Shown in pieces: positions 19,752 to 19,905 of a stretch of 64,000 bases of DNA. Position 1 is the first letter of the stretch. Every line of letters begins with the position of its first letter. The notes below the pieces were generated by a model, which made no database searches, was not told where the DNA came from, and saw only the letters and a list, made by a program, of their open reading frames with translations. The translations under genes were made by a program, and so were the position numbers. The DNA lies in assembly GCF_007990445.1 (NCBI RefSeq), contig NZ_AP019841.1, positions 1,798,001 to 1,862,000 on the forward strand, written 5' to 3'. This stretch comes from Leptotrichia wadei. Lineage in GTDB: Bacteria > Fusobacteriota > Fusobacteriia > Fusobacteriales > Leptotrichiaceae.

Positions 19752-19796
19752 AAAAAAAACATACTATCCTTTTGAATAATATGTGTTTCCAAAAGG
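19752..19796 (-). terminator. Mutually exclusive terminator/antiterminator hairpins in the yhhQ leader
   Basis: Read on the minus strand, CCTTTTG (19796-19790) can pair with CAAAAGG (19774-19768). The stretch between and after them can instead form AAACACATA (19788-19780) with TATGTTT (19763-19757), directly followed by a run of T. The two helices cross and cannot coexist. The first arm of the antiterminator begins in the two C residues that end the proposed aptamer, a direct switching link. Confidence 0.6.
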
Positions 19797-19827
19797 TTTT
19801 TTTTATAGATGGAATATCCCAAACATC
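19795..19827 (-). promoter_or_regulatory. Candidate preQ1-I riboswitch aptamer upstream of yhhQ
   Basis: A 33-base segment on the minus strand has the layout of preQ1-I aptamers. Stem P1 is GATG/CATC. A T follows the first P1 strand and a C precedes the second, matching the U and C that contact preQ1. The 12-base loop contains GGG, and an A-rich tail (TAT then eight A) ends in CC, able to pair with the loop GG as the pseudoknot. P1 is short at four pairs and the tail is two to three bases longer than usual. Genes downstream fit preQ1 control. A covariance search is needed to confirm. Confidence 0.55.
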
Positions 19828-19876
19828 ATTATATTTTTTTTATTACAATCATTTATAGTTATTTTTACAGGCTTTT

Positions 19877-19905
19877 ATTATACAAGTATTTGTTAAAAAA
19901 TGCAA
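19877..19905 (-). promoter_or_regulatory. Promoter of the yhhQ/radical SAM operon
   Basis: Minus strand TTGCAT (19905-19900), 17-base spacer, TATAAT (19882-19877). Transcription would start near 19870, giving a leader of about 170 bases that contains the aptamer and terminator. Confidence 0.6.

Follow-up and report, generated by a model that had tools for sequence, protein, structure and literature searches.

A review of preQ1 riboswitches names only three class-I types. RF00522 covers type I (Carnobacterium) and type II (B. subtilis and T. tengcongensis), which carry UC and AC, respectively, before the P1 3' strand; the type I tail has a conserved C31 followed by UA, and terminator control has been reported for the B. 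subtilis element. Type III (E. coli), described as almost confined to Pseudomonadota, has the class-I pocket with UU after P1 and is associated with yhhQ users; its AAGG tail pairs with a pyrimidine-rich loop and occludes the AAGG Shine-Dalgarno sequence. The alpha site of class-I aptamers reads preQ1 through U6, C17, and A30 on a G5-C18 floor, and the beta-site ligand contacts are C31 and U16 (Carnobacterium numbering, PMC8752633, used here). The preQ1-II (COG4708) and preQ1-III classes, which presumably share the ligand, both have larger HLout pseudoknots; preQ1-II is reported in Streptococcaceae. The queK-qrtT-queL leader of C. difficile is termed a PreQ1-I riboswitch and precedes queuine-salvage genes.

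We analyzed a window of 64,000 nucleotides from contig 1 of the 2.4-Mb genome of Leptotrichia wadei, in which the initial annotation had placed a riboswitch-like unit before yhhQ. The analysis confirmed this observation, and the pieces named there (GAUG/CAUC, a U, a C, an A-rich tail, CC, two hairpins, and a T-run) are all present on the minus strand (Table 1). Its sequence, conservation, gene association, terminators, and covariation at the outer P1 pair make it highly probable that the element is a transcriptional OFF riboswitch with a class-I preQ1 pocket, belonging to a subtype not modelled by Rfam, with a putatively rewired P2. The proposed promoter stood in part: its TATAAT is perfect, but the -35 element matches at only three of six positions, and the promoter scan listed nothing on the minus strand here. 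The next best match of the R2 model on the window scored 9.7 bits. Across the 64 kb, GATGTTTGGGANNNNCCATC had a single exact match, whereas 0.44 matches would be expected by chance even with up to 3 mismatches allowed. The folding of the aptamer was no more stable than that of shuffles (z=0.48), and an alternative hairpin was predicted inside its loop.

Table 1. Features of the yhhQ leader and downstream genes (positions within the window)
Feature	Position	Strand	Remarks
-35-like element TTGCAT	19900-19905	-	Weak, 3/6; 17-nt spacer, by eye
-10 element TATAAT	19877..19882	-	Perfect; similar in leaders of L007 and L013
35-nt aptamer NGAUGUUUGGGANANNCCAUCNNUAAAAAAAACCU	19794..19828	-	R2 model 55.7 bits, E=5.3e-12 (not independent, as the window sequence belongs to the R2 training set); conserved in relatives
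P1 5' strand UGAUG	19824..19828	-	Pairs with 19807-19811; outer pair U.U in the window
GAUG	19827-19824	-	
12-nt loop UUUGGGAUAUUC	19812..19823	-	U6=19823, U7=19822, G9-G11=19820-19818, specificity C17=19812
P1 3' strand CAUCU	19807..19811	-	CAUC 19811-19808
L3 A-rich tail AUAAAAAAAA, then CC	19795..19806	-	A30=19799; CC = C33, C34
A-run	19804-19797	-	
CC	19796-19795	-	
Antiterminator 5' strand CCUUUUGGA	19788..19796	-	Starts with the aptamer CC
Antiterminator 3' strand UUCAAAAGG	19768..19776	-	GG also part of the terminator stem
Intrinsic terminator hairpin	19754..19789	-	dG -10.5; runs into a T-run, to about 19752
yhhQ / QPTR queuosine-precursor transporter, 240 aa	18975..19697	-	TIGR00697, PF02592
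queL, radical-SAM queuine lyase, 234 aa	18217..18921	-	PDB 6p78 'Queuine lyase'

Alignment of 31 distinct aptamers revealed that G5-C18, U6, U7, C17, and A30 are invariant in all 31; in the three with seven A and the two with an 11-nt loop, positions are numbered by alignment and not by count. A lack of conservation of the contact bases in related leaders, which the initial annotation had named as a refuting result, was thus not observed. The loop measures 12 nt in 29 aptamers and 11 nt in 2, and the A-run comprises 8 residues in 26, 7 in 3, and 9 in 2. Position 8 is U, positions 31 and 32 are A, and the tail ends in CC. Base 16, which precedes C17, is G in 17, U in 10, A in 3, and C in 1. Because the beta-site contacts C31 and U16 are thus absent or unconserved, we predict one ligand per variant RNA.

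The length of P1, initially called atypical, was mostly resolved: the helix is about 5 bp in the variant, as the relatives demonstrate, and the window happens to have U.U as its outer pair. Across the 31 aptamers, this outer pair is CG in 12, AU in 8, GC, UA, GU, UU, and AG in 2 each, and UG in 1. The inner 4-bp core never varies, so the outer pair alone tests P1. Among 24 aptamers (AU 8, CG 6, GC 2, UA 2, GU 1, UG 1, unpaired 4), the outer pair covaried, with six standard pair types and both sides changed in 11/24, and 0/500 shuffles reached its score. The tail C33C34 is complementary to the loop G9G10 in 24/24 of these and in 30 of the 31 distinct aptamers, the one altered on both sides and unpaired being L189. 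This pairing constitutes a candidate pseudoknot, P2; since GG and CC are invariant among the 24, P2 is proposed without covariation.

The genes downstream point to queuosine metabolism. The yhhQ product scored 182.6 bits against TIGR00697 (cut-off 50.95), and that of queL matched 6p78 with E=6.3e-53 over residues 1-231; queL also follows yhhQ in other Leptotrichiaceae loci. The product of QueL from queuine is preQ1, according to PMC11477304 and PMC11130926. QueC was found neither in the host genome nor in any of 33 genomes of the family, which marks yhhQ-queL as a salvage operon. YhhQ is present in 30 of the 33 Leptotrichiaceae genomes, and the core GATGTTTGGGA-N5-CATC-NN-TAAAAAAAACC occurs exactly upstream of yhhQ in 21 of these 30 loci. 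Nine family members with smaller genomes (L020-L028) have kept yhhQ and show no aptamer upstream of it; the switch may have been lost as these genomes shrank.

We searched 98 Fusobacteriota genomes with R1, a covariance model built from 11 Leptotrichiaceae aptamers of the variant only. At E<=0.01, matches were obtained in 36 genomes, 30 strong and 6 weak. The strong matches lie in 21/33 family genomes and in 9/65 other genomes of the phylum, which belong to groups g12 and g13, the latter being Cetobacterium. In all nine inspected g12/g13 loci, the next genes encode a nucleoside hydrolase and YhhQ. The hydrolase is queK by context, with NCBIfam yielding general hydrolase families only, and the variant accordingly stands upstream of queK-yhhQ in Cetobacterium. 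QueC was missing from all 14 g12/g13 genomes. Among the weak matches, those in G034, G089, and G091 coincide with RF00522 elements, and those in G030, G032, and G092, chance-like on inspection, were excluded from the R1 counts.

Canonical elements also occur in the phylum. RF00522 matched in 28/98 genomes, 5 above the cut-off, and the canonical element heads queL-yhhQ in 7/8 inspected loci (genes assigned by sequence, with one QueL-like product checked); the orthologous queL-yhhQ operon of Fusobacteriaceae has a canonical RF00522 leader. At L151, the canonical element heads queF-like and queC-like genes. In group g25 (L170, L237, L238, and L240-L243), the canonical element has an 11-nt loop and the tail AAAAAACCAAAG, possibly an intermediate between the canonical CUAGG and the CC of the variant.

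In the Streptococcaceae, the variant accompanies a different gene. The R2 model identified a strong motif in 98/295 genomes, and QueC was found in 99/295; weak matches in G208 and G288, which have no others, and a second weak match in G377 had been dropped before this comparison. The motif is present in 98 of the 99 queC genomes, and in every motif genome it is followed by queC in the same orientation, at a distance of 72-1012 bases (median 75). In the exception, G153, queC appears by eye to be internal, after the apparent end of queF. The co-occurrence is strong (Fisher p=7e-79 over the 295 genomes), with independence overstated by the relatedness of the genomes; as the Streptococcus genomes are closely related, it reflects few independent events. 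The streptococci with the variant possess queCDEF and hence preQ1 synthesis, whereas the fusobacteria with the variant have no QueC and rely on salvage. PMC11130926 counts Streptococcus species such as S. mitis and S. mutans among the queuosine synthesizers.

A scan of GTDB genomes in which P1 was left free except for its top G-C pair retrieved 88 stretches, and GAUG/CAUC reappeared in 78 of them. Of these 78, 69 precede queC, 3 queK, and 4 yhhQ, and 2 end too early; none of the remaining 10 has a pairing P1. This result rules out a chance origin of the motif. The queC carriers are Streptococcus among the matches listed (80/88 stretches). No carrier beyond Streptococcus was found in 395 Lactobacillales genomes, where all 31 matches at E<=0.001 fell in genomes already matched in the Streptococcaceae search, or in 398 Bacillota genomes, which yielded the seed and one 28.7-bit match whose loop proved to be missing. 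The single match on a viral contig (L149) lacks GAUG/CAUC.

Taken with the invariant pocket, the association with both synthesis and salvage genes suggests that the element probably senses preQ1. From the known pathways, preQ0 would be unexpected from queuine salvage and free queuine unexpected from queCDEF, so preQ1 would be the sole free product that the two routes share. These considerations, and the retention of every base of the alpha site that reads preQ1, make it unlikely that the same architecture holds a pocket tuned to preQ0, queuine, or guanine instead. Such a pocket would nevertheless accord with loop and ceiling positions that differ from those of types I-III, and with the co-existence of the variant and a canonical element before different genes in one genome. 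The latter was observed in six Cetobacterium-group genomes (G036-G039, G042, and G044; the RF00522 match of G039 is weak, at 26 bits, and doubtful on inspection) and in one Streptococcus, G106. In G106, the variant lies upstream of queC, and an RF00522 element of 42.4 bits (L172) lies upstream of a gene for a queK-like nucleoside hydrolase followed by a transporter-like gene.

With preQ1 as the probable ligand, the question arises of how the variant relates to the described types. It shares with RF00522 the 5-bp P1, G5-C18, U6, U7, C17, the consensus 12-nt loop, the A-rich L3 with A30, and the que genes, and terminator control with the B. subtilis element. The canonical C31, U32, A33, and G34 are replaced by A, A, C, and C and C8 by U; the loop carries GGG, L3 is two A longer, and the core of P1 is fixed as GAUG/CAUC. 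Base 16 is free, in contrast to type I, and is the A of type II in only 3/31. Type III shares the pocket, the UU after P1, and the link to yhhQ users; its purine tail and pyrimidine-rich loop are exchanged in the variant for CC and GGG, and control is by a terminator and not by occlusion. The 31 distinct aptamers therefore lack the defining features of types I, II, and III, and they retain the linkage to queuosine synthesis or salvage genes.

The covariance searches agree with this comparison. No Rfam family, the preQ1 classes included, reached its cut-off in the window. A match to RF00522, whose absence the initial annotation had listed as counting against its reading, was not obtained: searches of 601 bases and of 66 bases gave none at E<=10, and neither did the host genome at E<=0.001 or 17 whole variant-bearing loci at gathering. 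On short stretches at E<=10, RF00522 detected 0/8 variant aptamers and 6/6 canonical fusobacterial ones, 3 of these 6 controls exceeding its gathering cut-off of 39 bits. For preQ1-II (RF01054) and preQ1-III (RF02680), neither the window nor the 17 variant loci contained a match at gathering. R1 nevertheless had a canonical preQ1-I element as its best match in 9/12 canonical loci.

An ordinary type I element that Rfam merely underscores would explain the 12-nt loop, the 5-bp P1, the UU after P1, and the A-rich tail, and the P1 AGAUG/CAUCU of the variant recurs in 24/28 canonical fusobacterial elements. Against it, U16 is G, A, or C in 21/31 aptamers, C31, U32, and C8 are all substituted, the tail is CC and not CUA, and RF00522 is silent even at E<=10, which renders this explanation very unlikely. 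The divergent subtype suggested by the initial annotation was right, and the case for it is stronger than first thought.

Terminators provide the expression platform. The hairpin in the window was better than 99/100 shuffles, although the strict terminator scan did not list it. In 21/25 representative leaders, a hairpin with a U-run was matched by at most 3/100 shuffles; no hairpin was found within 85 nt in 3/25 (L066, L118, and L136), and in L060 the finder returned only a poor, misread hairpin, with a CCCGGUUUUUACCGGG hairpin visible by eye.

The antiterminators were more variable. As initially described, the aptamer CC begins the antiterminator arm in the window, where CCUUUUGGA pairs with UUCAAAAGG; on its own, this Leptotrichia helix is marginal versus shuffles (p=0.035 in a contiguous-helix test and p=0.114 in its replacement). 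The contiguous-helix test gave p<=0.05 in only 4/80 leaders and p<=0.01 in none; it was too crude for streptococci because their helix has a mismatch, and it was replaced. Of the 22 representatives in the replacement test, which considered the minimum-energy fold of the truncated transcript, 12 have CC paired downstream. In the other 10 it is unpaired, which limits the generality of the CC part of the model; several of these 10 still pair the A-tract and P1 end downstream. S. mitis-type leaders form a helix between GCUAAAAAAAACC and GGUAUUUUUUAGC, the latter reaching 3 nt into the terminator 5' arm (p<0.002). Cetobacterium-type leaders pair the last part of the A-tract, together with CC, with GGUUU(UU) of the terminator (p 0.012, 0.002, and <0.002), and in L029 AAAAACCU pairs with AGGUUUUU (p 0.128 in the replacement test and 0.06 in the contiguous-helix test). 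Several unrelated platforms have antiterminators that take up the A-tract together with CC and share part of the terminator sequence.

The arrangement suggests the following mechanism. At low preQ1, the A-tract and CC, in streptococci together with the last P1 base, would form an antiterminator with sequence further downstream, allowing transcription of yhhQ-queL (or queCDEF, or queK-yhhQ). At high preQ1, U6, C17, and A30 would recognize the ligand on the floor formed by G5-C18, the tail would dock along P1, and CC would pair with G9-G10 as P2; the antiterminator would be lost, and RNA polymerase would halt at the terminator. Because docking of the tail would remove the antiterminator strand, ligand would mean OFF. 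The gene context (queC, queK, and yhhQ-queL) and the platforms agree with a preQ1 OFF-switch; together with the invariant pocket, they support the original proposal of a preQ1-I-type riboswitch with terminator control before yhhQ, with preQ1 as the predicted ligand. A conserved leader attenuator that is protein-bound or ligand-free would fit the extreme sequence conservation, P1 included, and the alternative loop hairpin predicted in the window, but it is scarcely credible given that the element persists in two phyla alongside unrelated genes and platforms and that the conserved positions include precisely the pocket bases of a known aptamer.

Beyond the preQ1 OFF riboswitch itself, we tentatively propose, as possible rather than probable, that the variant is a fourth class-I structural subtype, with the alpha site kept, the beta site lost (C31 to A), and a GG:CC P2 cap. 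It may have arisen in Fusobacteriota, where canonical elements share its AGAUG/CAUCU P1. Streptococcus may have acquired the aptamer alone, with neither its gene nor its platform, and the aptamer may have spread there to almost every queCDEF operon; a shift in ligand preference is also possible. As the aptamer is nearly identical in two phyla that differ in the associated genes and platforms, the horizontal transfer of a bare aptamer can be tested. The subtype also offers a natural test of how far the preQ1 pocket tolerates rewiring, and of whether a cooperative sensor of two ligands becomes a sensor of one when the contacts to the second ligand are lost.

The findings fill a gap in the annotation of a leader that is present in 98/99 sampled queC-bearing Streptococcaceae and invisible to RF00522. 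We found no earlier description of the motif in the literature surveyed; McCown 2014, which is said to have defined the preQ1-I types, may already include it. A survey of riboswitches (PMC9495176) gives S. agalactiae as a carrier of preQ1-I and lists none of S. pneumoniae, S. mutans, and S. pyogenes as such, and the term 'preQ1' has 0 occurrences in an Rfam-annotated pneumococcal transcriptome study. The literature consulted comprised PMC11625349, PMC8752633, PMC11477304, PMC11130926, PMC6593275, PMC12519234, PMC9495176, PMC6296669, and PMC10942264.

Several individual Streptococcus leaders depart from the common pattern. In G340, the aptamer L189 (G340:C1:1017254-1017406) has decayed, with loop GGG changed to GAG and tail CC to CA, and queC contains an internal stop; riboswitch and queC seem to be eroding together. 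G274 and G339 also have a stop in queC, yet their aptamers are intact. G265 carries two near-identical leader copies 3.2 kb apart (L197 and L198; C1, 1423946 and 1427159) and only one full QueC match. About 1 kb separates the variant aptamer from queC in one Streptococcus (L231 in G366, and L138), so this leader may contain an insertion.
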